From positions 62,001 through 126,000 of the forward strand of contig CAMLJY010000004.1 of the NCBI GenBank assembly GCA_946480465.1: a stretch of DNA of 64,000 nucleotides, written 5' to 3'. The notes under the pieces were generated by a model. It ran no database searches. It was not told the origin of the DNA and saw only the letters and a list, made by a program, of their open reading frames with translations. Shown in pieces: positions 45,046 through 61,274 of the stretch. Each line of letters opens with the position of its first letter. Position 1 is the stretch's first letter. This DNA is from an uncultured Burkholderiales bacterium. GTDB lineage: Bacteria; Pseudomonadota; Gammaproteobacteria; Burkholderiales; Burkholderiaceae. A program made the translations under genes and the position numbers.

Positions 45046-46311
45046 CTACGCGATGAGGAAGGCGATCACCGCCACCAGCGTCGGGGCCAGGGCCCCGAGC
45101 AGCAGCCCGCCCGCGCCGATGGACTCGTCGGCGAAGCCGCGCTTGAGCAGGGCGACGCCGGCCGGGTTCGGCGCGTTCGCGATGACGGTGAGCCCGCCGC
45201 CGGCCACCGCGCCGGCGACCAGCATGTACTTCGCTTCGTTGCTGATGCCGCTGATCTGCGAGCCCAGGTAGGTCAGCGCCGCGTTGTCGGTGATGGCGGT
45301 GAGGCCCAGCGCGCCGAAGAACAGCGCCACCGGCTCCAGGCTGGAGACGATGGGCTGCAGCCACCACCGCTGCAGGCCGCCCAGCACGACGAGTCCGGCA
45401 AGGAAGAAGGCCACCAGCAGCGATTCCTTGATGATCAGCGGGTTCTGGTGGCGCTCGTAGGCCTGGGAGAAGCCGAGGAACAGCAGGAACACGCCGAGGA
45501 AGGCGACCGGGTGGTGGGCCAGCAGCACCACCGCCGCCAGCAGCACCACGTGCACCGCCGCGATCGGCCACGGCACCGGGGGCCGATCGGACCCCGGCGC
45601 GGCCGCGGGCGCGGCCCCGGCCTGCAGGTGGCGGCGCAGCACGAAGGCCGCCGCGCTCGCGTTGACGACGACCGCGATCGCCGCCTTCCAGCCGAAGGAC
45701 GCGAACATGAAGGCGCTGTCCCACTGCCAGACGGAGGCCACCATCAGCACCGGCGGCGCGGCGTAGGAGGTGAGCGTGCCCCCGATCGACACGTTGACGA
45801 ACAGCACGCCGAGCGCGAAGTACTTGACCCCTTCGGGCAGTTCGGGCCGGAAGACGATGGGCGCCAGCATCAGCGCGGCGATCGTCATCGCCGCGGGCTC
45901 GGTGACCAGCGACCCCATCAGCGGCACGGCGGCCAGGCCCAGCCAGGCGGTCGCGAGCGGCGTCGGGATGGGCGCCAGCCGTGCGATGGCCTGCACCGAG
46001 TTCAGGACGGTCGCCGAGATCGGCCTCGAGGCGGCGATGACCATCACGACGAAGACGAACAGCGGCTCGGTGTAGTTGCGCGATTCGGCGTAGGCAAGCG
46101 CCTCCTGGCCGTTGCTGACGAGCGCCATCGTGAGCACCAGCACCATGGCCCAGAAGCCGAAGACCACTTCGACCTCGCCGAGCAGGTGGAACAGGCCCGC
46201 GTGGCGGGGAAACCGATGCGCCAGCCGCTCGAACTGCTTGGTCGAGAAGGTGTGGAGCAGGGCGATGGCGAAGATCGCGCCGGCAATCAGGTCGATGGTG
46301 GAAGTGGGCAT
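45046..46311 (-). CDS. putative Na+/H+ antiporter (membrane protein)
   Basis: A 421-aa protein with about ten helices, resembling the Na+/H+ antiporter family with conserved SLVTEPAAMTIAAL and ALGLTAITDNAALTYLGS. The TEP and TDN motifs are those expected in ion-transporter families of the IT superfamily. GTLTSYAAPPVLMVASVW is also conserved. It is convergent with the CaCA exchanger (35-base gap). The start MPTSTID at 46311 was chosen because upstream codons are not membrane-like. Confidence 0.7.
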   Translation of the reverse strand: MPTSTIDLIAGAIFAIALLHTFSTKQFERLAHRFPRHAGLFHLLGEVEVVFGFWAMVLVLTMALVSNGQEALAYAESRNYTEPLFVFVVMVIAASRPISATVLNSVQAIARLAPIPTPLATAWLGLAAVPLMGSLVTEPAAMTIAALMLAPIVFRPELPEGVKYFALGVLFVNVSIGGTLTSYAAPPVLMVASVWQWDSAFMFASFGWKAAIAVVVNASAAAFVLRRHLQAGAAPAAAPGSDRPPVPWPIAAVHVVLLAAVVLLAHHPVAFLGVFLLFLGFSQAYERHQNPLIIKESLLVAFFLAGLVVLGGLQRWWLQPIVSSLEPVALFFGALGLTAITDNAALTYLGSQISGISNEAKYMLVAGAVAGGGLTVIANAPNPAGVALLKRGFADESIGAGGLLLGALAPTLVAVIAFLIA

Positions 46312-46446
46312 GCGAAAGGCGGTCGAGGCAAGGCTGCGTGGCGGCCCGACCAGCGCATCAACCTGCCACACCCCCATGGCGTGGCACCCGGGCGCGGAGT
46401 CTACTGGACAGGCCGTCCCGTTCGTCCGCGCGGTGCTCGGCAGGCT

Positions 46447-46776
46447 TCAGGCGGAAGCCATGCGCTTGCACTCCTCGGCGCATCGGCGGCAGGCCTGCGC
46501 GCAGGCCTGGCAGTGCTGGTGCTCGTGCCGCGCGCACTCGTCGCCGCAGGCCTGGCACACCTGGGCGCACAACTGGCACAGCGGCTCGGCGAACTCGCTG
46601 CCGCGTGCCATGTACCCGGCCGCCATCCGGCAGATGGCGGCACAGTCGATGTCGAGCGCGATGCAGCGGGCCATCGCCTTCACGTCCTGCTCGCGCAGGC
46701 AGGCGGTGGCGCAGTGGTCGCAGGCGTCCGCGCAGGCGTTGCACGCTTCGACGCAGGCTTGGTGGATCTGGTGCAT
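46447..46776 (-). CDS. Cys-rich four-helix copper-storage-like protein
   Basis: A 109-aa cytosolic protein with 18 or so Cys in helical spacing, as in Csp/DUF326 proteins: CVEACNACADACDHCATAC, CQLCAQVCQACGDECARH and CQACAQACRRCAEEC. The Cys line a four-helix bundle that binds many Cu(I) ions. There is no Tat or Sec signal, so it is a cytosolic (Csp3-like) type. A good ribosome site (GAAGGAGAAG) precedes the start at 46776. It fits with the copper efflux genes at 55-64 kb. Confidence 0.85.
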   Translation of the reverse strand: MHQIHQACVEACNACADACDHCATACLREQDVKAMARCIALDIDCAAICRMAAGYMARGSEFAEPLCQLCAQVCQACGDECARHEHQHCQACAQACRRCAEECKRMASA

Positions 46777-46867
46777 GGACTTCTCCTTCGAGAGGTGGCA
46801 GGGGCCCGCCGCGGGCCGTCAATGCGGCCCGGCGGACGGAGGGCCAAGGCCGGTTCCGGCCTGACGG

Positions 46868-46934
46868 CCATCGGGCGCGTCCCGGCGGCCTTGGTTCCGG
46901 CCTGCTGGGCAAGGCCGGAGCCCGCGCCCGATGG
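46868..46934. repeat. nested inverted repeat
   Basis: CCATCGGGCGCG (46868-46879) pairs with CGCGCCCGATGG (46923-46934). Inside, GGCCTTG (46887-46893) pairs with CAAGGCC (46910-46916). The element lies between the tctA stop and the start of the copper-storage gene. It could stabilise or end the tctA transcript; it has no T-run. Confidence 0.5.
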
Positions 46935-46970
46935 TCCGCCGTGGCCGAGCAGCCGCGGCCGCGAGGCACC

Positions 46971-48476
46971 TCAGGCTTCCTGGAACGCCAGCTCCCGCTT
47001 GCTGCGCACCGCCGGCAGCGTCACGGCCACCAGCAGCAAGGCGGCGGCCACCAGCAGGCCGGCCGACAGCGGCCGCTGCGCGAAGGTGTTCCAGTCGCCG
47101 CGCGACAGCAGCAGCGCGCGGCGCAGGTTCTCTTCCATCATCGGCCCGAGGATGAAGCCCAGCAGCAGCGGCGCCGGCTCGCAGCGCAGGCGATAGAACG
47201 CGAAGCCGAGCACTGCGAACAGGGCCACCATGTAGACGTCGAAGGTATTGTTGTTGACCGAGTAGACGCCGATGCAGCAGAACGCCGCGATGGCGGGAAA
47301 CAGGAAGCGGTAGGGCACGGTGAGCAGGCGGATCCAGATGCCGATCAGGGGCAGGTTCAGGATCACCAGCATCAGGTTGCCGATCCACATCGATGCGATC
47401 AGGCCCCAGAACAGCTCGGGGTTGCTGGTCATCACCTGCGGCCCCGGCTGGATGCCCTTGATCGTCATCGCGCCGACCATCAGCGCCATCACCGCGTTCG
47501 GCGGAATGCCGAGGGTCAGCATCGGGATGAACGAGGTCTGGGCGCCGGCGTTGTTGGCCGATTCAGGCCCTGCCACGCCGCGGATGTCACCCTTGCCGAA
47601 CTGGCTGGACTGGCGCGCCAGCTTCTTCTCCAGCGTGTACGCGGCGAAGGACGACAGCAGCGAGCCGCCCCCCGGCAGGACGCCCAGCAGCGAACCCAGC
47701 GCCGTGCCGCGCAGCACGGCGGGGGCGGCGAGGCGGAAATCCTCGCGCGTCGGCCACAGGCCCTTCACGTCCTTGGTGAACACCTCGCGCTGCTCCGCGG
47801 GGCGGCCCAGGTTGGCGATGATCTCGGCGAAGCCGAAGAGGCCCATGGCCAGTGCCACGACGCTCACACCGTCCGTTAGCTCCGGAATGTCGAAGCTGTA
47901 GCGCGGCACGCCGGAGATGACGTCGGTGTTCACCTGCCCGATCAGCAGGCCGAGCAGGATCATCGCCACCGCCTTGATCAGCGAGCCGGAGGCCAGCACC
48001 ACCGCGCCGATGAGGCCCAGCACCATCAGGGAGAAATACTCCGCCGGACCGAACTGGAAGGCCAGTTCGGTCAGCGGTGGCGCGAAGGCGGCGATGACCA
48101 GCGTGGCCACCGTGCCCGCGAAGAAGGACCCCAGGCCCGCGGCGGCCAGCGCCGGTCCCGCGCGGCCGCTGCGGGCCATCTGGTAGCCGTCGATGGCGGT
48201 GACGACCGAGGCCGATTCGCCCGGCACGTTGATCAGGATGGCGGTCGTGGAGCCGCCGTACTGCGAGCCGTAGTAGATGCCCGCCAGCATGACCAGCGCC
48301 GGCGTCGCGTCGAGCGAATAGATCGACGGCAGCAGCATCGCGATGGTGGTCACGGAGCCGAGGCCGGGCAGCACGCCGATCAGCGTGCCCAGCAGGCAGC
48401 CCATGAAGGCATACAGCAGGTTCTGCAGCGACAGCGCCGTTTGCAGGCCGAGGGCGAGGTTCTCGATCATTTCCAT
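46971..48476 (-). CDS. tctA: tripartite tricarboxylate transporter, large permease TctA
   Basis: A 501-aa membrane protein with about twelve helices. It is recognised by GVLPGLGSVTTIAMLLPSIY near the N-terminus, GIYYGSQYGGSTTAILINVP and GVLPGGGSLLSSFAAYTLEK, the typical TctA loop. It imports citrate or other carboxylates with sodium or proton. No TctC binding protein is in the window; in Burkholderiales such proteins are often encoded elsewhere. It follows tctB by 7 bases. Confidence 0.9.
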   Translation of the reverse strand: MEMIENLALGLQTALSLQNLLYAFMGCLLGTLIGVLPGLGSVTTIAMLLPSIYSLDATPALVMLAGIYYGSQYGGSTTAILINVPGESASVVTAIDGYQMARSGRAGPALAAAGLGSFFAGTVATLVIAAFAPPLTELAFQFGPAEYFSLMVLGLIGAVVLASGSLIKAVAMILLGLLIGQVNTDVISGVPRYSFDIPELTDGVSVVALAMGLFGFAEIIANLGRPAEQREVFTKDVKGLWPTREDFRLAAPAVLRGTALGSLLGVLPGGGSLLSSFAAYTLEKKLARQSSQFGKGDIRGVAGPESANNAGAQTSFIPMLTLGIPPNAVMALMVGAMTIKGIQPGPQVMTSNPELFWGLIASMWIGNLMLVILNLPLIGIWIRLLTVPYRFLFPAIAAFCCIGVYSVNNNTFDVYMVALFAVLGFAFYRLRCEPAPLLLGFILGPMMEENLRRALLLSRGDWNTFAQRPLSAGLLVAAALLLVAVTLPAVRSKRELAFQEA

Positions 48477-48483
48477 GGCTGCC

Positions 48484-48942
48484 TCACGACATGAACGCCG
48501 GCCACACGGGGATGGTCAGCTGCAGTCCCTTGATGAACACGGCCCACGATCCGGCGGTGAGCACGAGGCAGTTCAGCAGCACTTCGCGCCAGCGGAACTG
48601 GTCCGACGCCGTGCTGATGACGATGATGAGCAGCGGCAGCGTCAAGGCCATGCCCAGCCGGGGCAAGGCCAGGCCGAACGCCACGATGGCGGCGACGACG
48701 ATCACCAGCGGCCGCCAGCGGATCGGGCCCATCGGCGCTGGCGCCGATGCACCGATCAGCGACTTGGCGGTGATCACGGTCCCCAGCAGGGCGAGCAGCA
48801 GGCCGAGCCCGAGCGGGAAGTAGCCGGGCCCGGGCCGAACGGAGCTGCCCATCGAGTAGTTCGAGGCCCCGATCGCGAACCCGGCGCCTGCCACGGCGAA
48901 CAGGAGGCCGGACCAGAAGTCTTCGCGGTTTCTCGCACGCAT
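48484..48942 (-). CDS. tctB: tripartite tricarboxylate transporter, small permease TctB
   Basis: A 152-aa protein with four helices (GLLFAVAGAGFAIGASNYSM, GLGLLLALLGTVITAKSLIG, PLVIVVAAIVAFGLALPRLG, LLNCLVLTAGSWAVFIKGLQ), as in TctB. It pairs with TctA in the membrane. An operator-like motif (48962-48976) sits 19 bases before the start codon. Confidence 0.85.
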   Translation of the reverse strand: MRARNREDFWSGLLFAVAGAGFAIGASNYSMGSSVRPGPGYFPLGLGLLLALLGTVITAKSLIGASAPAPMGPIRWRPLVIVVAAIVAFGLALPRLGMALTLPLLIIVISTASDQFRWREVLLNCLVLTAGSWAVFIKGLQLTIPVWPAFMS

Positions 48943-48961
48943 GATGTTGCCCTCTCAATTG

Positions 48962-48976
48962 ATTTGCACAAATGTA
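48962..48976. promoter_or_regulatory. operator-like site 1 (tctBA)
   Basis: ATTTGCACAAATGTA. The first 12 bases form a perfect palindrome (ATTTG-CA-CAAAT). It lies 19 bases before the tctB start and shares ACAAATGT with sites at 49093 and 50160 and most bases with 54405. It is a probable binding site of the MarR protein encoded at 54466-54993. Confidence 0.55.
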
Positions 48977-49092
48977 GAAAGGGGGGCGCGCGGAGCGCAT
49001 GCGTACTTCCCGCACAGGGGCCTTTGGATTCGCGCGGGTTTCGCCTCCGGCGCGCGAACCCATCCGGGGCGCGCGGCCGGGCGCGGCACTGC

Positions 49093-49108
49093 ATTGTGAC
49101 AAATGTAT
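49093..49108. promoter_or_regulatory. operator-like site 2 with -10-like TATACT
   Basis: ATTGTGACAAATGTAT shares ACAAATGT with sites 1 and 3. It overlaps TATACT (49106-49111), a good -10 hexamer on the plus strand; the -35 is weak. The site could control the short transcript that ends in the terminator at 49158-49187. Confidence 0.5.
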
Positions 49109-49111
49109 ACT

Positions 49112-49187
49112 TCTGCAGTCGCAGTTTGCCTGGCGGCGAACCGCGGCACAGGAGTTCGGGGGCCTCTTCGGAGGCCCCCTTTTTTTT
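49112..49187 (+). ncRNA. candidate small RNA
   Basis: A transcript starting a few bases after TATACT (49106-49111) and ending at the strong terminator would be about 70-75 nt. No convincing protein frame lies within it, and both flanking genes are on the minus strand, so a plus-strand terminator has no other user. The 5' part, TCTGCAGTCGCAGTTTGCC, is open sequence that could pair with targets. Exact ends are not known. Confidence 0.45.
49158..49187 (+). terminator. intrinsic terminator, UUCG tetraloop
   Basis: GGGGGCCTC (49158-49166), loop TTCG, GAGGCCCCC (49171-49179), then eight T (49180-49187). It is a perfect 9-bp stem with the very stable UUCG loop. The T-run is on the plus-strand side only, so it stops plus-strand transcripts. 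Confidence 0.9.
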
Positions 49188-49231
49188 CGCCCGGCCTCTC
49201 CCGGCCGGGCGCCGGGCGCAGCGCCGCGGCC

Positions 49232-50116
49232 TCAGGCCGGCTGCGCTTCCTCCGCCAGCGCGGTGCGTCCGGCGTAGACGGTGAGGTGCGGGAACGGGAT
49301 CTCGACGCCGCGCCGATCGAAGGCTTCCTTGATCCGCTGCAGGAAGGCGCGGCGGACCGTCCACTGGGCCAGCGGGGCCACCTTGAACCGGCTGCGCAGC
49401 ACGACGGCGCTGTCGTCGAGACGCTCGACCCCGGCGATCTCCAGGTCATCGAGGATCAGCGGGGCGAGGGCTTCGTCCGCCCGCATCGCCGCACCCACCC
49501 CTCGGATGATGTCCAACGCTTCGTTCACGCTTTCGCGGTAGGCCACGCCGACGTCCATCACCGCGAAGGCAAAGCCGCGGCTCATGTTCGTGACGGTGGT
49601 GATGAGGTTGTTGGGAATGAAATGGACGTTGCCGTCGTAGTCGCGCAGGCGCACGTGCCGCAGCGTGATGTCCTCCACCAGGCCGCCGATGCCGGCCACG
49701 TTGACGACGTCGCCGGTGCGGATCTGGTCCTCGAACAGCAGGAAGAATCCGGTGAAGTAATCCTTCACCAGGCTCTGGGCGCCAAAGCCGATGGCCAGGC
49801 CCACCACCCCCGCCGCACCCAGGATGGGCGCCAGGGAAACGCCAACCTCGGCGAGCACCAGCATGACGGCGATGGCGCTGATGACGAGGGCCACCAGGTA
49901 GCGGATCACGCGGCCGAGCGTTTCCGCGCGGCGTGCCGCCTCGATGCCTTCCAGGCGCGCCTGGATGCGGATGCGCACGCCCCGCACGAGGCGCTGCAGC
50001 ACGGCGATGGCGATCCACGCCGCGGCCACGATCAGCACGATGCGGACAGCCGCCAGGGCCGGGCCGTACCACTGGTTCCAGTCCACGCCTGCGAGGTGTG
50101 TGAACAGCTCGCTCAT
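49232..50116 (-). CDS. small-conductance mechanosensitive channel, MscS family
   Basis: A 294-aa protein. Three N-terminal helices (the third, pore-lining one is GAAGVVGLAIGFGAQSLVKD) and the MscS beta domain (GDVVNVAGIGGLVEDITLRH, RDYDGNVHFIPNNLITTVTN) are followed by a C-terminal alpha/beta domain. It opens on membrane tension and releases solutes after hypo-osmotic shock. An operator-like site (50160-50174) lies 43 bases upstream. Confidence 0.9.
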   Translation of the reverse strand: MSELFTHLAGVDWNQWYGPALAAVRIVLIVAAAWIAIAVLQRLVRGVRIRIQARLEGIEAARRAETLGRVIRYLVALVISAIAVMLVLAEVGVSLAPILGAAGVVGLAIGFGAQSLVKDYFTGFFLLFEDQIRTGDVVNVAGIGGLVEDITLRHVRLRDYDGNVHFIPNNLITTVTNMSRGFAFAVMDVGVAYRESVNEALDIIRGVGAAMRADEALAPLILDDLEIAGVERLDDSAVVLRSRFKVAPLAQWTVRRAFLQRIKEAFDRRGVEIPFPHLTVYAGRTALAEEAQPA

Positions 50117-50159
50117 TCAGTCTCCGAGAGGGTCAAGATGCATGCCCGGACCATAATGC

Positions 50160-50174
50160 ATTTTCACAAATGTT
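50160..50174. promoter_or_regulatory. operator-like site 3 (mscS)
   Basis: ATTTTCACAAATGTT lies between the DUF5985 gene stop (50217) and the mscS start (50116). It differs from site 1 at two positions in the first 15 bases. It is probably in the mscS promoter. Confidence 0.5.
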
Positions 50175-50216
50175 CATCGCCGACCGACCGTGCCGAAGGG
50201 ATTCGGGCGGCCCGGC

Positions 50217-50492
50217 CTACCGCCGGCCGGGCCGGTTCTTGTCCCAGATCGCGAGCAGGATCAGCCCGTAGGTGACGAGGCGGACGAGGTAGTGCACCGG
50301 CGAGTCGTCCTCGTTCCACGAGTTGGTGAGCGCCATGTCGAAGCGGTTGACCGCCTCGATCCAGAACGCGAGCATGAAGAACAGAAAGAAGCGGTCGCGC
50401 GTGCTGAGCCAGTAGCGCAGGAAGAACAGGCCTGCGAAGAACGAGCCGATGGCGATGCCGCCCAGCAGCGTGTGGTTCAGGGGGTCGATCAC
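50217..50492 (-). CDS. DUF5985 membrane protein, second of pair
   Basis: A 91-aa protein with three helices (LLGGIAIGSFFAGLFFLRYW, RFFLFFMLAFWIEAVNRFDM and YLVRLVTYGLILLAIWDK), as in the DUF5985 family. The start overlaps the upstream DUF5985 gene closely (one-base gap to its stop). Function unknown. Confidence 0.75.
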   Translation of the reverse strand: MIDPLNHTLLGGIAIGSFFAGLFFLRYWLSTRDRFFLFFMLAFWIEAVNRFDMALTNSWNEDDSPVHYLVRLVTYGLILLAIWDKNRPGRR

Positions 50493-50493
50493 C

Positions 50494-50751
50494 TCAGTCG
50501 CCCTCCAGGATCAGCCCGGTCAGCAGCAGCATGACGGAGACCAGCGCGACGACGAGCCGCCAGGTCGAGAGGTCCGCCGCGGTCAGCACCAGCCTGTCCA
50601 GCACCAGCAGCACGTTGTTCACCGTGAGGCCGCCGAAGCACAGCGCGCTCCACAGCAGCATCCGGGCGTGGGTCTTCAGGTAGGCCCGCAGCAGCAGCCA
50701 CGCGCAGCAGCAGGCCGTGGCGGCACACAGGAAGTAGACGATCTTGGCCAC
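50494..50751 (-). CDS. DUF5985 membrane protein, first of pair
   Basis: An 85-aa protein with three helices (IVYFLCAATACCCAWLLLRA, MLLWSALCFGGLTVNNVLLV, RLVVALVSVMLLLTGLILEG). It is a paralogue of the next gene with the same N-ALCFGGL/AFWIEA-N arrangement. The start directly follows the winged-helix gene stop, so translation is probably coupled. Confidence 0.75.
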   Translation of the reverse strand: MAKIVYFLCAATACCCAWLLLRAYLKTHARMLLWSALCFGGLTVNNVLLVLDRLVLTAADLSTWRLVVALVSVMLLLTGLILEGD

Positions 50752-51117
50752 TCACCGGTCCCTTCTCAGCTTGAACGCGTCCGCGAACCGCTGGGCGGTG
50801 CGCTGGGTCGCGTCGTGGATGAGCTTCGTCACGCCGACGAGATCTTCGGCATAGGCCCGGGCCAGTGCGTCCAGCAGGCCGTCCAGCGCGGGGTTGCCCG
50901 GTTCGTAGCGGTACTGCCCTTCGTCGCAGCACAGCAGACCCGCGTCGCACAGCGATTGCAGCAGGTTCACCGCCACCTGCTCGGGGACGTAGAGCCGCGC
51001 GCCGACCTCGGCCGCGCTGCGCCGCTGGCCGGGCTGCGTATGCATCAGGAGCACGGCCTCCAGGTGCGGGACGGAGGGGATGCTGGTCAGGATGAAGCGC
51101 TTGAGGTCGGGAGACAT
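50752..51117 (-). CDS. winged-helix-like small protein
   Basis: A 121-aa protein with a winged-helix fold (LEAVLLMHTQPGQRRSAAEV, GARLYVPEQVAVNLLQSLCD, AGLLCCDEGQYRYEP) followed by a C-terminal helix with basic end (RFADAFKLRRDR). It could regulate the operon or act by protein contacts. The start MSPDLKRF at 51117 was chosen as it begins the fold. Confidence 0.6.
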   Translation of the reverse strand: MSPDLKRFILTSIPSVPHLEAVLLMHTQPGQRRSAAEVGARLYVPEQVAVNLLQSLCDAGLLCCDEGQYRYEPGNPALDGLLDALARAYAEDLVGVTKLIHDATQRTAQRFADAFKLRRDR

Positions 51118-51154
51118 GCTGCTCAGGGAGGCGCGGCGAGCGCGCACGGCTTCT

Positions 51155-52711
51155 TCAGGCCGCGACGGGGTCGGCCGGTACGTCTTCCGTCAGCGCGGAC
51201 AACTCGGCGAACGAGTCCACGCGCACGATGTTCGGCACGCGCAGCACCTCGGGCGATTTCGGATCCATCGCGAAGGCGCGGTCCACCCGGCGCAGCAGGC
51301 CGATGTCGTTGATGTTGTCGCCGACGGCCCAGGTCGTCGCGATGCGGGGCTCCGCCGGGTCTTCCAGGAAGCGCGCGAGCACGTGGCTCTTGCAGATCGG
51401 CGCGCCCTCTCCGGCGTCGAGCGGCTGGAAGGCCGGGTTGATGCGCAGGCGGCCGCTGCAGACGTCGCTGTCGAACTGCACCGTGTGCGCCAGCGCGAAG
51501 TCGGCGAACACGCGGCGGCGCAGGATCTCGGCCGCGACGAAATAGCTGTCGCTGACCACGCCCACCATGAAGCCGTTGCGGCGCATCCGGTTCACGAAGG
51601 CGATGGCTCCGGGCCGCAGCCGCAGGCTGCGGGCCACCTGTTCGAACTGCCGGCGGTGCACGAACTTGAAGAGTGCCGCGATGCGTTCGCTGCGCGTGAC
51701 GGCGTCCCCCGCCGGATCGTCGAGCAGGCCGGCCAGCGCCTGCTCGCGGCCGGTGGCGCGCGCCAGTTCGACGATGAAGCGCTCCGAGGTGATCGTGCCG
51801 TCCATGTCCAGCAGCAGCAGGCGCTGCCGGTTGCGGCGGCGGGTGAGGATGTATTCGATCGACGCGGTGGCCAGCCGCTGCGTCTCGTACATCGCGGCGA
51901 TCTGCTCGACGTGCAGCCGCCCGGCCTCACGCGCGCGCGAGTAGATGACGCGCGACACCTCGTTGGCCATCGCCGTCAGGTCCAGCAGCGGCTGGCTGTC
52001 GTGCTCGAGCGAGCCGATGTCGACCTCGACCACGCGTGCGCCGCTGCGGTGGGCGTCCAGCAGCAGGCCGATGTCCACGCCGTAGCCGTTCTCGAACTCG
52101 AGCGTCTGCAGCAGCGAGCGGCGCGCCGCGATGATGCCGCCCAGCGGCTGGGCATAGTGCGACAGCTCGGGGAAGAACACCTTCAGCATCGGCTTGGCCG
52201 TGAGTTCGGTGACGCGGCCGCCGCCGCGGCCGAACCGGGCCTTGACGAAGTCGGCCTCGCCGCGCAGCAGCGGCCGGCACAGGTCGGTCACGATGCCGGG
52301 CCGCAGGCCGGCCAGGTCGCCGTCGAGGTAGACGATCAGCTCGCACTGGCCTTCGCCGAGGCCGTCGTGCATCGACGCACCCTTGCCGAGCATCGTGCTC
52401 GTTATCACGTGGGCCCCGGCGCGGCGGGCGAGCGCGGCGGTGTCGTCGATCGAGCTGTCGTCCACGACGATCACCTCCGCCGTGGCCGGGTCGGACAGCG
52501 CGTAGCGGACCACGTCGGCGATGCGCGCCGCTTCGTTCAGTGCCGGGATGACGACGGTGGCGCAGGCCTGCATGGGCAGCTGGAGCACCGCGGCCGCCAG
52601 CTGCGGCGGTGCCGCCTGGGGCCGAGCCGGCGCGGCCCGGCGGCGTGCTGCCATGACCCGGCCGGCCTGCTGCAGCAGCCAGCGCCACGCCGTGCGAAGA
52701 AAGTCGTTCAT
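51155..52711 (-). CDS. GT2 glycosyltransferase-HAD phosphatase fusion (glucosyl/mannosyl-3-phosphoglycerate synthase-like)
   Basis: A 518-aa protein. Residues 50-290 form a GT-A glycosyltransferase of the GpgS type: VVIPALNEAARIADVV, VIVVDDSSIDDT and the metal-binding DGD (130-132), then EFENGYGVDIGLLLDA. Residues 296-500 form a HAD/SerB-like phosphatase: LLLDMDGTITSERF (nucleophile D302, D304), VVSDSYF and AVGDNINDIGLL. A natural reading is a one-chain enzyme that makes a glycosyl-3-phosphoglycerate and removes the phosphate to give a compatible solute (glucosylglycerate or mannosylglycerate). A similar synthase-phosphatase fusion is known in Dehalococcoides (mgsD). Its start overlaps the clc stop (ATGA). 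Confidence 0.8.
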   Translation of the reverse strand: MNDFLRTAWRWLLQQAGRVMAARRRAAPARPQAAPPQLAAAVLQLPMQACATVVIPALNEAARIADVVRYALSDPATAEVIVVDDSSIDDTAALARRAGAHVITSTMLGKGASMHDGLGEGQCELIVYLDGDLAGLRPGIVTDLCRPLLRGEADFVKARFGRGGGRVTELTAKPMLKVFFPELSHYAQPLGGIIAARRSLLQTLEFENGYGVDIGLLLDAHRSGARVVEVDIGSLEHDSQPLLDLTAMANEVSRVIYSRAREAGRLHVEQIAAMYETQRLATASIEYILTRRRNRQRLLLLDMDGTITSERFIVELARATGREQALAGLLDDPAGDAVTRSERIAALFKFVHRRQFEQVARSLRLRPGAIAFVNRMRRNGFMVGVVSDSYFVAAEILRRRVFADFALAHTVQFDSDVCSGRLRINPAFQPLDAGEGAPICKSHVLARFLEDPAEPRIATTWAVGDNINDIGLLRRVDRAFAMDPKSPEVLRVPNIVRVDSFAELSALTEDVPADPVAA

Positions 52712-54156
52712 GGTGTCTCCTTGGGGGCTGCCGCGGGAAGGGGGGGGACCGGCAGCAGGGCGGCCAGCTCGGGGTACATGGGTGGGGTCAGCAGGCGGGC
52801 GATGCCGCTGGCCAGCAGCGCGCAGGCCATGAGGCTGAGCACCATCGCGTGGCCGGCGACCATTTCCATCACGATGATGAAGGCGGTGATCGGGCCCTGC
52901 GTGGCCGCCGCGAGGAAGCCGACCATGCCCAGCGCGATCAGTGGAATGGCCGCTTCGCGCGATACGCCCAGCAGCAGCGCCACGTCGTGGCCGATGCCTG
53001 CGCCGATGGACAGCGAGGGCGCGAACATGCCGGCCGGCACCCCGGTCCATGCCGACAGCCAGGTGGCGCAGAACTTGAGCGCGGTGTAGACGCCGGGCAG
53101 TTCGGCCCGGCCCTCCAGCAGCGCGCGCGTGGGCGCATAGCCGGCGCCCGCCGTGAGGCCGCCGGTGGCCAGCGTGATCACCGCCACGGCCAGCGCGCAG
53201 CCGGCCGCGAAGCGGTACGGGAAGGCCGCGCGCCAGCGGCCCAGGCGGCCCGGCAGCGCGCGGGCGGACGTGATGAGCAGCCGCGACAGCAGGCCGCCCG
53301 CCAGCCCGCACAGCACCGCCACGAGCAGGCCGGGGCCGAGCAGGCGCCACGAGAGATCCTGTACCCGCAGGCGCCCGAAGTAGGTCTCGTTGCCGAAGAC
53401 CGACACCGCGACCAGGCCGGCCAGCACGATGCTGGAGATGATCAGCGCGCTGTGCTGCATGCTGCGCCGCCGCGACAGCTGCTCCAGCGCGAAGATGACG
53501 CCGCCCAGGGGCGTGTTGAAGGCGGCGGCGATGCCGGCGGCGGCACCGGCGACCATCAGGTCATGCTGGTCGATCGGGGAGCGGTCCGACAGCCAGCGGC
53601 GCGCATGCAGCATGACGCCGGCGCCGACCTGCACGGTCGGCCCTTCGCGTCCGATCGACAGTCCGCCCAGCAGGCCGGCCGACACCAGGCCGATCTTCTG
53701 CAGCGACAGGCGCAGCGAGACCAGCCGGGCCAGCCGCGGCGGCTCGAGGTCGTCTTCCAGCGCGCGGACGACATGTGGAATGCCTGAACCGGCGGCACCG
53801 GCCACGAAGCGGCGCGTCCACCACAGCACGGCCACGGTCACCAGCGGCGTCCATGCCAGCGCCGCCCAGGCGGCGTACGGGGACGACGCCCGCGCGCTCG
53901 TGAAGGCATGGCTGGCGGCTTCGGCCAGCAGCGCGAAGCCGACCACCAGCAGGCCGGTGGCCGCCGCGTAGACCAGCACCACGGCGCGATCGGCCCACAG
54001 GCGTCCGCCTGCCAGCTCGGTGGCCAGGTTGCGCCAGAAGTCGGGCGCCAGCCCGTGCACGGCGCTGCGGCCGGAGGCCAGCGTGGCGCTGGCCTGCCGC
54101 CAGGCACGATGGAGCCGGGCGGCTGCCAGAGCGCAGGCGCGCGGGATTGTCGGCAT
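52708..54156 (-). CDS. ClC chloride channel/antiporter
   Basis: A 482-aa membrane protein with the three ClC selectivity motifs: GSGIPHVV, GREGPTVQVGAG (with the gating Glu) and GVPAGMFAPSLSIGAG. It would exchange Cl- for H+ or conduct Cl-. No C-terminal CBS domains. The stop overlaps the start of the GT-HAD gene. The start at 54156 begins a basic N-terminus before the first helix. Confidence 0.9.
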   Translation of the reverse strand: MPTIPRACALAAARLHRAWRQASATLASGRSAVHGLAPDFWRNLATELAGGRLWADRAVVLVYAAATGLLVVGFALLAEAASHAFTSARASSPYAAWAALAWTPLVTVAVLWWTRRFVAGAAGSGIPHVVRALEDDLEPPRLARLVSLRLSLQKIGLVSAGLLGGLSIGREGPTVQVGAGVMLHARRWLSDRSPIDQHDLMVAGAAAGIAAAFNTPLGGVIFALEQLSRRRSMQHSALIISSIVLAGLVAVSVFGNETYFGRLRVQDLSWRLLGPGLLVAVLCGLAGGLLSRLLITSARALPGRLGRWRAAFPYRFAAGCALAVAVITLATGGLTAGAGYAPTRALLEGRAELPGVYTALKFCATWLSAWTGVPAGMFAPSLSIGAGIGHDVALLLGVSREAAIPLIALGMVGFLAAATQGPITAFIIVMEMVAGHAMVLSLMACALLASGIARLLTPPMYPELAALLPVPPLPAAAPKETP

Positions 54157-54196
54157 CGGGAAATAACTCCTGAGGCACGCGTGCCCCGACCGGTGA

Positions 54197-54388
54197 TCAA
54201 CGCATGCGCTGTTTCGAGACGGCGGCCGACGGATCGGCCGTGTGGAGACTGGACAGGGCCGGCTTGCCGGCGCGAACCGCCTCGCGGTGCGCCTGGCGCT
54301 CCATCCACAGCAGCCACAACCAGCCGCTTGCCGCGGCGTCAAGGGCGAACAGCAGGCCGATCAGCCACCAAGCCGCTCGTCTTGGCAT
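54197..54388 (-). CDS. 63-aa single-helix membrane protein
   Basis: A small protein with a basic start (MPRRAAWW), one helix (LIGLLFALDAAASGWLWLLW) and a charged tail. It lies 40 bases before clc in the same direction and directly after operator-like site 4, so it would be the first gene of the operon. No homologue is known to me. Confidence 0.55.
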   Translation of the reverse strand: MPRRAAWWLIGLLFALDAAASGWLWLLWMERQAHREAVRAGKPALSSLHTADPSAAVSKQRMR

Positions 54389-54404
54389 CGGTTGGCGTCC
54401 ATGT

Positions 54405-54420
54405 ATTTGCACAATAGTAT
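54405..54420. promoter_or_regulatory. operator-like site 4 (clc operon)
   Basis: ATTTGCACAATAGTAT lies 16 bases before the 63-aa ORF, between it and the MarR gene. Its first 10 bases are identical to those of site 1. Confidence 0.5.
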
Positions 54421-54465
54421 CAGGCGTGCCCAATTGCGGCATCCGGGTCGATCCCGGGGAACTTT

Positions 54466-54993
54466 CTACTGCTGGCCCAGCGGAACGCCGGCGGCCGTCT
54501 CGTCGGGCTGCAGCGCCTCGATCAATACCGCGAGATCCTTGTCGAGGCGTGCCAGGGTCTTGGTGTCCAGCCGCGCCAGGGCGTCCGGAAGGACGCCGTG
54601 GAAGGGGCCGGGTGCCTTGCGCAGCAGCTTCAGCCCGCCGGGCAGGATGTGCAGCTGCACCGTGCGGCGATCCGGGCCGTCCTTCGCGGCGGCGATCAAC
54701 TCCATGGCGAGCAAGGCCTTGACGAGGTTGCTGGCGGTGGTCTGGTGGATGTCCATCGCCTGCGCCAGGCCGCTGACGCCGACGCCGGGCTGGTCGCGGA
54801 TCACGCTCAGGGCCCACAGCTGCGCACCGCCGATGCCGGCGCGCTTCTCGACCTGCTGGAAGTGCGTCTTCACGGCGTTGAAGACGATGCGGAACTTGCG
54901 CAGCACCCGGGCGGCGGGCACCCCCAGCTCCTGGCGGACGGCGGGGTCTTGTTCTTCGGGCTGGGGGCGGGGCTTGCGGGTCGGGGCGGGCAT
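54466..54993 (-). CDS. MarR-family regulator
   Basis: A 175-aa protein with a basic N-terminal tail and a MarR winged helix: IGGAQLWALSVIRDQPGVGV, SGLAQAMDIHQTTASNLVKA (recognition helix) and the wing AKDGPDRRTVQLHILPGGL. It ends in a dimerisation helix (LAVLIEALQPDE). It is upstream of the block whose genes share the palindrome-like sites, and so is the best candidate to bind them. It may sense a small acid or oxidant; none can be named. Confidence 0.85.
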   Translation of the reverse strand: MPAPTRKPRPQPEEQDPAVRQELGVPAARVLRKFRIVFNAVKTHFQQVEKRAGIGGAQLWALSVIRDQPGVGVSGLAQAMDIHQTTASNLVKALLAMELIAAAKDGPDRRTVQLHILPGGLKLLRKAPGPFHGVLPDALARLDTKTLARLDKDLAVLIEALQPDETAAGVPLGQQ

Positions 54994-55090
54994 TCGCCGA
55001 TGATAGGGGCGCGCCTGCGGGCCTTGGCTCTCCGATCACCGGGTGCCTTTCAGGGCGGCCGCGGGGCGGACCGGGTGCGGCCCCGCGGCC

Positions 55091-57412
55091 TCACCGCACC
55101 TGGACCGCCCGCAGCCGCAATGCATTGCCGATCACGCTGACCGACGACAGCGCCATCGCCGCCGCGGCGACGACCGGCGACAGCAGCAGCCCGAAGAACG
55201 GATAGAGCAGACCGGCCGCCAGCGGAATGCCCGCCACGTTGTAGGCAAAGCTCAGGAAGAGGTTCTGCCGGATGTTGCGCATGGTCGCCCCCGACAGCGT
55301 GCGCGCGCGCACGATGCCCAGCAGGTCGCCCTTCAGCAGCGTGATGCCCGCGCTTTCCATCGCGACGTCCGTGCCCGTACCCATCGCGATGCCGACGGTG
55401 GCGGCGGCCAGCGCGGGCGCGTCGTTCACGCCGTCGCCGGCCATCGCGACCACGCGGCCTTCGGCCTGCAGGCGCTTCACCACGGCCGCCTTGTCCTCGG
55501 GGAAGACCTCGGCGACGACTTCGCCGATGCCCAGCTGCCGCCCGACCGCCTCGGCCGTGGTGCGGCCGTCGCCGGTCAGCATGACGACCCGGACCCCGGC
55601 TGCCTGCAGGGCCTGCAGCGCGGCCGGCGTGGTGGCCTTGACGGGGTCGGCGATCGCCACGAAGCCTGCCAGCCGGCCGCCGACGCCGACGAAGATCACC
55701 GTGGCCGCCTGCTGCCGCTGGCCTTCGGCGGCCGCGGCGAGCGGGCTGCTGTCGATGCCTTGCTCGGCGAGGAACTTGGCGCTGCCCGACACGACCACCT
55801 GGCCGTCCACCGTGCCGATCACGCCCTTGCCCACCGGCGAGTCGAAGTCGCTGACCGGGGCCAGCGCCAGGCCGCGCGCCTGGGCCTCCATGACGATGGC
55901 CAGGGCGAGCGGGTGTTCGCTGGCGCGCTCGACGCTGGCCAGCTTCTGCAGCACGTCCTGCGCCGAGACGCCCTCGGCCGGCTCGACGTGCACGACCTTG
56001 GGCCGTCCTTCGGTGAGCGTGCCGGTCTTGTCGACCACCAGGGTGTCGACCTTCTCCATCTTCTCCAGCGCCTCGGCATCGCGGATCAGCACGCCCAGCT
56101 GCGCGCCCTTGCCGACGCCGACCATGATGGACATCGGCGTCGCCAGGCCCAGCGCACAGGGGCAGGCGATGATCAGCACCGCCACCGCCGCGACCAGCGC
56201 ATGGCTGAAGGCCGGCGACGGCCCCCAGGCGAGCCAGGCGGCGAAGGTCAGCGCCGCGACCAGCATCACCACCGGCACGAACCAGCCGGCCACCTGGTCG
56301 GCCATGCGCTGGATGGGCGCGCGGCTGCGCTGCGCGGCGGCCACCATGTGCACGATCTGCGACAGCAGGGTGTCGGCACCGACCTTCTCCGCCCGCATCA
56401 CGAAGCCGCCGGTCTGGTTCATCGTGCCCGCCGTCAGCTTCGAGCCCACCGCCTTGGCCACCGGCACCGGCTCTCCGGTGACCATGGACTCGTCCACGTT
56501 GCCCTTGCCTTCCGCCAGCTCGCCGTCGACCGGCACCTTCTCGCCCGGACGCACGCGCAGCAGGTCGCCGACCTGGATGGTGTCGACCGGCACGGTCTCG
56601 TCGCCGCCGTCGTGGTTCACCTTCACGGCGGTCTTCGGGGCCAGGCCCAGCAGGGCCTTGATGGCGCCGGAGGTCCGTTCACGCGCGCGCAGCTCGAGCA
56701 CCTGGCCGAGCAGCACCAGCACGGTGATGACGGCGGCGGCCTCGAAGTAGACGGCCACCGCGCCATCGGCCAGCCGCAGCGCCGGCGGAAAGCGCTGCGG
56801 CGCGATGGTGCCGACGATGCTGTAGAGCCAGGCGGCGCCCGTGCCCAGCGCGATCAGCGAGAACATGTTCAGGCTGCGGTGCTTCACCGACGCCACGGCC
56901 CGCACGAAGAAGGGCCAGCCGGCCCACAGCACCACCGGCGTGCCCAGCAGCAGCTGGATCCAGTTCGACAGCTGCTGCCCCAGCAGGTGGTTCAGGTTGG
57001 TCAGGTGGCCGCCCATTTCGAGTGCAAAGACCGGCAGGGTCAGTGCGGTGCCGATCCAGAAGCGGCGGGTCATGTCCTTCAGCTCGGGGCTCGCCCCTTG
57101 CTCGGCGGTGGCGAGCACCGGCTCCAGGGCCATGCCGCAGATCGGGCAGTGGCCCGGGCCCAGCTGCCGGACCTGAGGGTGCATCGGGCACGTGTACTCG
57201 GCCTGGCCCGGGTCGCCCGTGGGCGCGGAGGCGGGCGGGCCGGCGTGGATGTGGCCATGGCCGTGGCCGTGGTGGTCGTGGTGGCCGTGGTGGCCGTGGT
57301 GGCCGTCGCCGCGGTCCTGCGGCTGGTGATCGTGAACGCCGGTCTGGCTCCGCGCCGCGTGGTGGTGATGCTGCGCGGCATGGTCGCGGGGTGGGCTGGG
57401 GATGGTCGGCAT
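55091..57412 (-). CDS. copA: Cu(I)-exporting P1B-ATPase, His-rich N-terminus
   Basis: A 773-aa P-type ATPase. The N-terminus is His-rich (residues 11-56), followed by a heavy-metal-binding domain (HMBD) with C75/M77/H78 and C89/C92/M94 ([17 protein letters not shown]) in place of the usual HMA domain. Core motifs: CPC in [13 protein letters not shown] (about 416), phosphorylation site DKTGT (about 460), and [10 protein letters not shown]. The CPC class transports Cu(I) or Ag(I) to the periplasm. A CueR-type promoter (57438-57468) precedes it. CAGGAGAG is the ribosome site. Confidence 0.95.
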
Positions 57413-58788: not shown

Positions 58789-60030
58789 ATGTTCACACCT
58801 GTCCTGCGCGCAGTCCTCCTGGCTGCCGCCCTGCTGCCGGCCGCCCGCGCCGCCGCGGCACCTTTGTCGCTCGACCAGGCGATCGGCCTGGCCGTCGAGC
58901 GTTCCGCGCTCACCCGCTCGGCACGCGCCGGCACGCAGGGCGCCGCTGAACTGGCGCGCGCGGCCAGCCAGCTGCCGGACCCGATGCTCAGCGTGGGCGT
59001 CGACAACCTGCCGCTGAACGGGCCCGACCGGTTCAGCACGTCGGCGATGGACATGACGATGAAGCGCATCGCCCTCGCCCAGGAGTGGGTCCCGGCCGAC
59101 AGGCGGGCGGCGCGCCAGGCCGTCGCGGCGGCGATGGCCGACCGCGAGGCGGCGATGGAGCGCGTGGCCGCGGCGGAAGTGCGCCTGCAGACGGCGATGG
59201 CGTACCTGGACGCGTACTTTGCAGGTGAGGCGGCCGTGCTGGCCACCCTCGCCGAACGGCACGCCCGGGAAGCGCTGGAGGTGGGCAAGGGCCGGCTGGC
59301 CAGCCCGGCCGGCGGCAGCGCCGGGGCGCTGGGGCTGGCCGGCGCGCTGGGCAGCGCCGAGGACGATTCGGCCGAGCAGCGCCAGCAGCAGGCCGCGGCT
59401 GCGGCCAACCTGCAGCGCTGGACCGGCGCGCCGGCCGGCCAGCTGCTGCCGCCGCTGCTGCCGGCCGAGCCGGCCGGGCCGGACTACGTCGCGGCACATC
59501 CGCAGGTGGCGCTCCGCCTGCGCGAGGTCGAGGTCGCACGCCACGAGGCCGAGCTCGCCCGGCTGGCGCGCCGCCCCAACTGGACGGTCGAGCTGTCCTA
59601 CGGCCAGCGCCAGGGCCGTTCCGACCTGGTGTCCTTCGGCGTCAGCATCCCCTGGCCGGTGGCGCCGGCGGCGCGCCAGGACCGCGAGACGGCGGCGAAG
59701 CTGGCACAGGTGGACAAGGCCGAGGCCGAGCTGGAAGAAGCCCGCCGGGCCGCCGCCGGCGAGCATGCCGCCCTGTCCGGCGACGCGCAGCGCTTGCGCG
59801 CGCGCATCGAGCGCTTCCAGGCCGGCGTGCTCGCACCGCTTCAGCAACGAAGCGCGGCGACGCTGGCGGCCTACCGCGGCAACCAGGCAGAGCTGTCGAT
59901 GCTGTTCGAAGCCCGCCTGGCCGACGTGGAGGCGCAGCGAAGGCTGCTGATGCTTCGGCGCGACCTGGCCCGGGTCCAGGCGCAGCTGGTGTTCAAGCCC
60001 GTTTCCCAAGCCCAAGGAGCAGCGCGATGA
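58789..60030 (+). CDS. cusC: CusC-like outer-membrane channel (TolC family)
   Basis: A 413-aa exported protein with signal peptide (AVLLAAALLPAARAAAA) and two helical-hairpin repeats of the TolC family (LDQAIGLAVERSALTRSARA, LPDPMLSVGVDNLP; RRPNWTVELSYGQRQG). It lacks a lipobox and is shorter than E. coli CusC. It overlaps cusB by 4 bases. Confidence 0.85.
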   Translation: MFTPVLRAVLLAAALLPAARAAAAPLSLDQAIGLAVERSALTRSARAGTQGAAELARAASQLPDPMLSVGVDNLPLNGPDRFSTSAMDMTMKRIALAQEWVPADRRAARQAVAAAMADREAAMERVAAAEVRLQTAMAYLDAYFAGEAAVLATLAERHAREALEVGKGRLASPAGGSAGALGLAGALGSAEDDSAEQRQQQAAAAANLQRWTGAPAGQLLPPLLPAEPAGPDYVAAHPQVALRLREVEVARHEAELARLARRPNWTVELSYGQRQGRSDLVSFGVSIPWPVAPAARQDRETAAKLAQVDKAEAELEEARRAAAGEHAALSGDAQRLRARIERFQAGVLAPLQQRSAATLAAYRGNQAELSMLFEARLADVEAQRRLLMLRRDLARVQAQLVFKPVSQAQGAAR

Positions 60031-61274
60031 ACCGCCTCGCCACCGCCGCCATCGCCGTCGCCGCCGTCCTGGCCGTGGGCGGTGCCGCCTTCCAGATCGG
60101 GCGCCAGTCGGTGCGCCACGAGGCCGCGGCCGCGCCCGCCGCCGCGGCATCCGCCGCCGAGCGCAAGGTGCTGTACTGGCACGACCCGATGGTGCCCGGC
60201 CACCGCTTCGACAAGCCCGGCAAGTCGCCCTTCATGGACATGCAGCTGCAGCCCGTGTACGCCGACGAGGGCGGTGCCGACGGGGGCATGAACCCGGGCG
60301 TGAAAGTGAGCCCGCAGGTGCAGCAGAACCTGGGGCTGCGCACCGCGCTGGTGAAGAAGGCGCAGGTCGGCCCGTCCTTCGAGGCCGTGGGCGCGGTGCA
60401 GTTCGACGAGCGCCTGGGCGTGGCCGTGCAGACCCGCGCTAACGGCTATGTAGAGCGTCTGCTGGTGCGCGCGCCGATGCAGCGTGTGGTCCGGGGCCAG
60501 CCGCTGGCCACGCTGTTCGTGCCCGAGTGGCTCGGTCCGCTGAACGAGATCGCGGCGCTGAAGCGGGCCGGCGCCGCGGCCGAGCTGGTGGCCGCGGCGC
60601 GCGAGCGCACGCGCGCGCTGTCGATCCCCGACGAGCTGGTGCGCCAGGTGGAGGCCGGCGGCCCGCCGCAGGCATGGACGACGCTGCTCGCGCCGGCCAG
60701 CGGCGTGGTGGCGGAGCTGGGCGTGCGCGAGGGCGTGGCGGTGTCCCCGGGCATGACGCTGTTCCGCATCGCCGGGCTCGAGAAGGTGTGGGCCGTCGTC
60801 GAGATCCCCGAGGCCGAGGCCCTGCGGCTGGCGCGCGGGCACGAGGTGACGGCGGCGCTGCAGGCCGACCCCGGCCGCGCCTTCTCCGGCACGCTGCAGG
60901 AAATCCTGCCGCAGGTGAACGCGGCCACGCGCACGCTGCCGGCCCGCTTCGAGGTGGACAACCCGGGCGGCCGGCTGGTGCCGGGCATGCTGCTGCGGGT
61001 TCAGGTCGCCGGTGCCGCGGCGCCGCGGCTGGTGGTGCCGACCGAGGCCGTGATCCGCACCGGCACCCGCGCGGTGGTCATCGTGCGTGCGGACGATCGC
61101 CGCTTCGAGCCGCGCGAGGTGCAGCTGGGCGCCGACCTGGGCGAGCAGCTGGAGGTGCTGCAAGGCCTGGCCGAAGGCGACGAGGTGGTGGCGAGCGGCC
61201 AGTTCCTCATCGATTCGGAGGCGCGGCTGCGCGCCGTGCTCGGCAGCATGGCCGCCAGCGGAGCCGGCAAGTGA
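60027..61274 (+). CDS. cusB: CusB-like periplasmic adaptor
   Basis: A 415-aa membrane-fusion protein. An N-terminal helix is followed by a heavy-metal-binding motif ([20 protein letters not shown], then MDMQLQPVY) as in CusB, then barrel-sandwich and beta-barrel domains ([56 protein letters not shown]). It links CusC and CusA. It starts in ATGA overlap with cusC. Confidence 0.9.

Follow-up and report, generated by a model that had tools for sequence, protein, structure and literature searches.

The stretch of Burkholderiales DNA analysed here, 64,000 nucleotides in length and called the window below, carries four copies of a palindromic operator, TACATTTG-NN-CAAATGTA, near genes for a MarR-family regulator, a ClC chloride transporter or channel, a GT2-HAD fusion enzyme, an MscS-type mechanosensitive channel and the carboxylate-uptake proteins TctB and TctA, together with a unit for a small RNA (sRNA). 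The locus is very probably the local part of an osmotic and ionic-stress regulon of Burkholderiales that would be governed by a MarR-family repressor. An interpretation of this kind had been offered in a preliminary description of the same DNA; its observation of the four sites and of the gene content holds, and the interpretation is supported by the sequence comparisons among relatives reported below.

The operator and its link to MarR

The operator copies start at 48959, 49090, 50157 and 54402, and no others are present in the window. The AT-rich 15-mer of the preliminary description, ATTTGCACAAATGTA, was recovered at the positions given there and nowhere else, as at most 3 mismatches matched only at 48962, 49093, 50160 and 54405 across the 64 kb searched, a count of 4 against 0.12 expected, and four matches were reached in 0 of 100 shuffles. 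The core ACAAATGT is intact in three of the four sites, as had been claimed. ACAAATGT alone at one mismatch was not enriched in the window (6 found, 7.7 expected), so the signal is carried by the longer element, which is better written as the 18-bp palindrome. Under a matrix scan of the window, in which the four sites scored as listed in Table 1, no further site reached 9 bits and no operator was detected before the own start of the MarR gene.

Relatives were gathered by scanning species genomes with an alignment of the MarR protein, and the best 80 of 426 confirmed places (L001-L080, with record titles mostly naming Burkholderiales genera) make up, together with the window, the 81 loci compared throughout. 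The window's 15-mer gave 134 strand-wise matches in the 80 MarR-anchored loci, a count in which one palindrome can score twice, against 1 in one mononucleotide shuffle, and the aligned sites of these relatives displayed the same palindrome. At 16 bits or more the matrix returned 127 sites in the 81 sequences and 2 in reversed sequence, and because these loci also supplied its training sites, the 15-mer match count serves as the independent figure. Inside called genes lie 9 of the 150 sites with at least 12 bits and 3 of the 127 with at least 16 bits. An operator of at least 16 bits is present in 71 of the 81 loci, and the motif therefore does recur beside orthologous MarR genes.

The motif was also tested genome-wide in relatives' genomes, for which the family set comprised 150 genomes from one family, 31 of them positive for MarR at E ≤ 1e-40. 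A strict site, with at most one mismatch to the operator pattern, was adopted for this set because two mismatches were too loose to part the MarR-positive from the MarR-negative genomes; a comparison at the order level with at most two mismatches was rejected for the same looseness. Strict sites were observed in 25 of the 31 MarR-positive genomes (40 sites) and in 19 of the 119 MarR-negative ones (20 sites), with p = 2e-11; in the MarR-positive genomes 26 of the 40 strict sites lie within 11 kb of a MarR gene, and the operator pattern read backwards gave 4 sites across all 150 genomes. The strict motif is thus not one that is common across genomes without link to this regulator. At the order level a MarR match at E ≤ 1e-20 was detected in 45 of 200 genomes; of the 46 matches at this level the 8 best were fetched, and in 7 of these a site of at least 16 bits lies within about 1.5 kb, with at least 28 bits in 5 of the 7, and the distant order-level locus L114 has a GT2-HAD gene directly after a site.

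The window MarR protein passes the Pfam cut-offs for PF12802 (35.1 bits, cut-off 27) and PF01047 (29.9 bits, cut-off 24.6), and among NCBIfam models it stays under the cut-offs of HpaR (19.7 bits against 121.2) and Saro_0803 (35.1 bits against 200). A marR gene was found in 74 of the 81 loci and in 27 comes first among the called genes that follow a site, an arrangement that would fit autoregulation. Another regulator, encoded or acting nearby, might instead bind the palindrome with MarR as a mere neighbour, and it speaks for this that MarR is a predicted binder and that strict sites occur in the 19 genomes without MarR. Such an explanation seems very improbable, as the sites track both the presence and the position of MarR, marR is so often first after a site (with 18 sRNA units, however, immediately upstream of a marR), and the size of the inverted repeat is fitting for a MarR dimer. 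Five of the 20 strict sites of MarR-negative genomes are represented by L162-L166, and the operator-like palindromes in these 19 genomes are perhaps bound by distant MarR paralogues.

An operator-linked small RNA

A second feature that accompanies the operators is a short unit bounded by a -10 box and an intrinsic terminator. A terminator lies 50-100 nt past the site in 35 of 254 site-strands, compared with 9 of 1794 control point-strands, and a -10 hexamer overlaps the operator's outer arm at one offset, toward the terminator in 27 of 34 cases and away from it in 1 of 34. In a tally covering all sites of the window, L001-L080 and L149-L168, 37 had both elements, 39 the -10 only, 16 the terminator only and 248 neither (p = 2.5e-16); the window unit, with its terminator at 49158-49187 (+), enters as terminator only because its -10 is displaced outward by 2 nt from the usual offset. 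Altogether 42 operator-linked units were observed. In 36 of them a -10 box that overlaps the operator is combined with a terminator some 75 nt further along, and in a few units, such as L076, the terminator is weak.

Twelve aligned units, from which the window was excluded, share a 5' stem and the terminator, and 12 of 17 pairs changed on both sides, a level reached in 0 of 500 shuffles, with far lower values in slid controls. The covariance model built from these twelve places the window unit at 49116-49188, with 36.4 bits and E = 6.5e-7; its further non-training matches at E ≤ 0.02 (L010, L057, L035, L008, L022, L063 and L004) each fall at an operator-linked unit. The candidate small RNA of the preliminary description is accordingly a member of a conserved operator-linked family, found by a model that had not been shown the window. 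AGGAG occurs in the 5' part of 13 of the 42 units against 3.5 expected. Searched genome-wide at E ≤ 0.1, model R1 matched in 46 of 150 genomes. A single match, in G216 beside its MarR, falls below 1e-11, and a weak one (0.011) in G003 lies beside an operator; among 20 R1 matches fetched, an operator-like site lies within about 1.5 kb in G216 and G003 only.

None of the 40 of 42 units searched (L075 and L076 were left out) reached an Rfam 15 gathering score, the best sub-threshold scores being sbrA in the window (27.1 against 45) and PhrS in L070 (22.8 against 37). A tiny open reading frame within the RNA is unlikely because a closed frame of at least 8 codons is present in 2 of the 42 units, neither with a Shine-Dalgarno-like start, and the peptide-coding reading was set aside. 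A promoter scan of 46000-56000 for combined -35 and -10 hexamers found none, and terminator-like sites in the 10 kb scanned numbered 4, with 2.9 in shuffles. A divergent sRNA terminator beside tctBA was sought in L003 and L156 and not found, so the pairing of tctB with the sRNA has been observed in the window only. In L009, L035, L059, L063, L078 and L079 an AGGGAAA..CCCT-like dyad was seen by eye about 15-30 nt before the sRNA operator, which is perhaps the site of a second regulator.

The units might also represent transcription attenuators in the leaders of neighbouring genes rather than trans-acting RNAs, given that 18 of the 42 lie on the same strand within 450 nt upstream of marR, where read-through could feed that gene. 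The remaining 24 are not so placed, the unit is transcribed away from tctB in the window and from DUF3014 in L004 and L008, that of L078 runs toward the 3' end of ClC, and the attenuator explanation is consequently judged unlikely. The balance leans modestly toward an apparently undescribed family of Hfq-type trans-acting sRNAs of about 70 nt, which would be the RNA arm of a Burkholderiales MarR osmotic regulon, such that osmotic release of one repressor would induce solute, ion and release systems and the sRNA would silence unlinked mRNAs.

Genes following the operator

The genes beside the operators were tallied over the 81 loci by the number of loci holding each gene and by how often it heads the called genes that follow a site. 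ClC is held by 45 loci and is first in 22; trehalose-6-phosphate synthase by 19 and first in 13; the Pal-like lipoprotein by 16 and first in 13; DUF3014 by 9 and first in 6; the PF00999 exchanger by 9 and first in 2; MscS by 8 and first in 6; trehalase by 8 and first in 5; a methyltransferase by 5 and first in all 5; a DapB-like gene by 5 and first in 4; and TctB by 2 and first in both. Positions inside a post-site operon were counted for the PF07399 Na+/H+ antiporter (13 loci, first in 3, inside the operon in 9), trehalose phosphatase (12 loci, first in 0, inside in 8), GT2-HAD (12 loci, first in 1, inside in 10) and TctA (3 loci, first in 0, inside in 2). Single arrangements include an operator between mscS and a methyltransferase-OpuAC-permease-ATPase gene run for betaine uptake in L004 and a contig of less than 11 kb in G254 with trehalase, synthase, phosphatase, MarR, ClC, Pal and three operators. 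Sites unlinked to MarR often fit the same pattern: one in Curvibacter gracilis is flanked by the genes for trehalose-6-phosphate synthase and trehalase, with some 535 nt to the called start of either, others precede an asparagine-synthase-like gene in G002 and G251, and another precedes an MscS-like gene in G002. The osmotic and ion theme of the preliminary description is, as read from these neighbourhoods, broader than was seen there, since it also takes in trehalose, betaine uptake, Na+/H+ antiport and Pal, and its carboxylate-uptake arm comes to three cases.

These three operator-linked cases of tctBA, namely the window, Piscinibacter sakaiensis L003 and G207 (in G207 unlinked to MarR), each have two operators. 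A MarR that senses a ligand and serves carboxylate or aromatic-acid metabolism might account for this, with tctBA as core target, the osmotic genes secondary and the ion-transport neighbours present by chance. MarR proteins often bind aromatic acids, the weak likeness of the window MarR to HpaR would point the same way, and in G207 a TctC gene adjoins the operator that precedes MarR (L167), yet it is not downstream of the operator. Set against the two loci in which tctB is the first gene are 22 for ClC, 13 each for trehalose-6-phosphate synthase and Pal, 6 for MscS and 5 for trehalase, and distant TctA homologues in L023 and L042 (32-33% identity) are not operator-linked. A carboxylate regulator of this kind is therefore improbable, and the osmotic and ionic-stress regulon is retained as the preferred reading.

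The features of the window are presented in Table 1. Pfam bears out the preliminary gene content for MarR, TctB, TctA, MscS, Voltage_CLC, GT2 with HAD and the two DUF5985 proteins, and what had been called a winged helix is a MarR_2 match below the cut-off; this gene adjoins DUF5985 genes in L018, L022, L047 and L077 as well. The gene finder, trained on known window genes, corrects the ClC start of the earlier reading to 54156. The chloride part of the claim stands as far as ClC is concerned, and the word exchange becomes uncertain, for the window protein keeps GSGIP and GREGP while the internal proton Glu, E203 in ClC-ec1, is replaced by Gln. By analogy with ClC-ec1, the Gln-bearing ClC may conduct chloride without proton coupling. 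Among 45 ClC homologues GREGP is kept in 44 (with 1 gap), and the internal position is Gln in 24 (including the window), Glu in 20 and Lys in 1. The GT2-HAD fusion is probably a compatible-solute enzyme similar to glucosyl-3-phosphoglycerate synthase/phosphatase, as the NCBIfam GpgS model PRK13915 matched it at E 1e-54, yet with 185.8 bits against a cut-off of 262.

Table 1. Operators, sRNA elements and genes of the window
Feature	Position	Strand	Basis
tctB-proximal operator, about 17 nt ahead of start codon	48959..48976	.	27.9 bits
Operator at sRNA promoter; distal one of two upstream of tctB	49090..49107	.	21.6 bits
Operator upstream of mscS	50157..50174	.	25.1 bits
Operator upstream of small-membrane-protein/ClC/GT2-HAD operon	54402..54419	.	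23.3 bits
-10 hexamer TATACT of presumed sRNA promoter	49106..49111	+	sequence; -10 boxes toward terminator in relatives
Small RNA, about 70 nt, predicted 5' end: 5' stem-loop, AGGAG linker, intrinsic terminator	49116..49188	+	covariance model
MarR-family regulator, 175 aa, presumed operator binder	54466..54993	-	PF12802, PF01047
Small protein, 63 aa, first gene after operator, one membrane helix by eye	54197..54388	-	no Pfam match
ClC chloride transporter/channel	52708..54156	-	PF00654, E 6e-78
GT2-HAD fusion	51155..52711	-	Pfam
Winged-helix protein	50752..51117	-	PF12802, 22.4 bits, under cut-off 27
DUF5985 protein a	50494..50751	-	Pfam
DUF5985 protein b	50217..50492	-	Pfam
MscS-type mechanosensitive channel	49232..50116	-	Pfam
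TctB	48484..48942	-	PF07331
TctA	46971..48476	-	PF01970

Similar open reading frames of 63-75 aa, with one membrane helix by eye, start 8-19 nt past the operator in five (L010, L019, L023, L028 and L044) of the 12 long-gap ClC loci that were inspected, with an aligned identity of 24-35%. At this distance of 8-19 nt, seen in the window and the five relatives, the small protein is possibly translated from a leaderless or near-leaderless mRNA. A PF07399 Na+/H+ antiporter gene also lies in the window at 45046-46311 (-), about 2.6 kb from the nearest operator, and is preceded by an nhaA-I riboswitch, a Na+/Li+ sensor, at 46337-46389 (-); among 8 searched relatives with this antiporter only L057 has the riboswitch (10835-10892, +), and there both the riboswitch and an upstream operator are present at the antiporter. 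The region is further flanked by putative metal-handling genes, which encode a Cys-rich DUF326 protein at 46447-46776 (-), a P-type ATPase with a heavy-metal-binding domain at 55091-57412 (-) and a CusB-like protein at 60027-61274 (+).

Proposed circuit and known systems

What is established at the level of sequence comprises the operator sites, the association of these with MarR across many genomes, the classes of target and, for the sRNA, a unit with a -10 box, a covarying 5' stem and a terminator. In the circuit proposed from them, a MarR dimer would bind TACATTTG-NN-CAAATGTA and would block RNA polymerase where the site overlaps a -10 box, an overlap that is clear for the sRNA and was seen for a few gene targets; an osmotic or ionic upshift would release the repressor. 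Release would turn on solute synthesis by GT2-HAD, glucosylglycerate-like in the window, with trehalose synthesis and turnover in relatives, together with chloride and sodium transport, glycine-betaine uptake, mechanosensitive release, the envelope lipoprotein, tctBA and the sRNA of about 70 nt, which would act on unlinked mRNAs. That one regulator sets solute synthesis, chloride exchange, mechanosensitive release and carboxylate uptake together, as the preliminary description proposed, is what we infer from their shared operator. Support for occlusion comes chiefly from the sRNA class, because a -10 at the sRNA offset is rare at gene-facing sites and no -35 was recognised.

Several observations weigh against this circuit. 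Ten of the 81 loci (L001, L041, L043, L045, L048, L049, L052, L066, L067 and L072, of which several are short contigs) are without a site of at least 16 bits, 6 of the 31 MarR-positive genomes are without a strict site and, conversely, strict sites are present in 19 of the 119 MarR-negative ones; at two mismatches or fewer, sites become common (125 of 150 family genomes and 177 of 200 order-level genomes). Several unlinked sites in MarR-positive genomes lie near lipocalin, acetyl-CoA hydrolase, TonB receptor, sulfatase and MFS genes, some fall in coding sequence, and the order-level loci L117 and L118 have amidohydrolase and DUF3103 genes as neighbours. Gene-facing sites have a -10 at the sRNA offset in 5 of 25 cases, and no -35 box was observed at a constant distance from the operator. 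The 26-nt sRNA linker displayed no consistent pairing partner among same-locus gene starts, unlinked targets not having been searched.

The coordination of osmolytes, chloride, sodium and mechanosensitive release in Burkholderiales is, to our knowledge, little studied. In many genera the operator described here, an element that can be read from sequence, would place them under a single regulator. A covariance model is now available for an RNA that has no Rfam 15 match at threshold among the units searched, and the predictions on binding, regulon and sRNA are testable in named species, such as Piscinibacter sakaiensis and Curvibacter gracilis.

Parts of the system resemble components already described. 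The GT2-HAD fusion resembles GpgS taken together with a HAD phosphatase, its GT2 domain being similar to GpgS (E 1e-54), and differs in scoring 186 bits against the curated cut-off of 262. MicF and OmrA/B are osmoregulated sRNAs under OmpR, which likewise place a small RNA among the outputs of an osmotic-stress regulator; the regulator here is of another class, the 40 searched units fall below every Rfam gathering score, and the sRNA arm, if true, would be an independent counterpart of OmpR with MicF and OmrA/B. The preliminary description knew of no account of the combination, and no prior description of the operator, the target set or the sRNA was found in listings of the open-licence PMC literature; MarR-type osmotic repressors are known, among them CosR, EctR1 and GbsR.

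CosR of Vibrio and EctR1 of Methylomicrobium are, in the account of PMC7876524, MarR-family repressors of compatible-solute genes at low salinity, the targets named there being ectABC, betIBA-proXWV, proVWX and bccT3. They share with the present system a MarR-type regulator tied to osmotic-stress genes, here by operator linkage, and differ in that the targets here are ClC, MscS, trehalose genes, GT2-HAD, Pal, Na+/H+ antiport, tctBA and the sRNA, ectABC not having been searched for; CosR and EctR1 are set beside the window MarR by their descriptions and not by sequence. GbsR and OpcR of Bacillus subtilis are likewise MarR-type repressors of osmoprotectant genes, OpcR hindering access of RNA polymerase to the promoter, and GbsR responding to choline and having as operator an A/T-rich inverted repeat with half-sites 4 bp apart, as stated in PMC7396694. 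Here only 2 bp separate the half-sites, and a broader range of targets is predicted. MarR-type osmotic repressors are thus already known, and by analogy the proposed circuit would work like those of CosR, EctR1, GbsR and OpcR.

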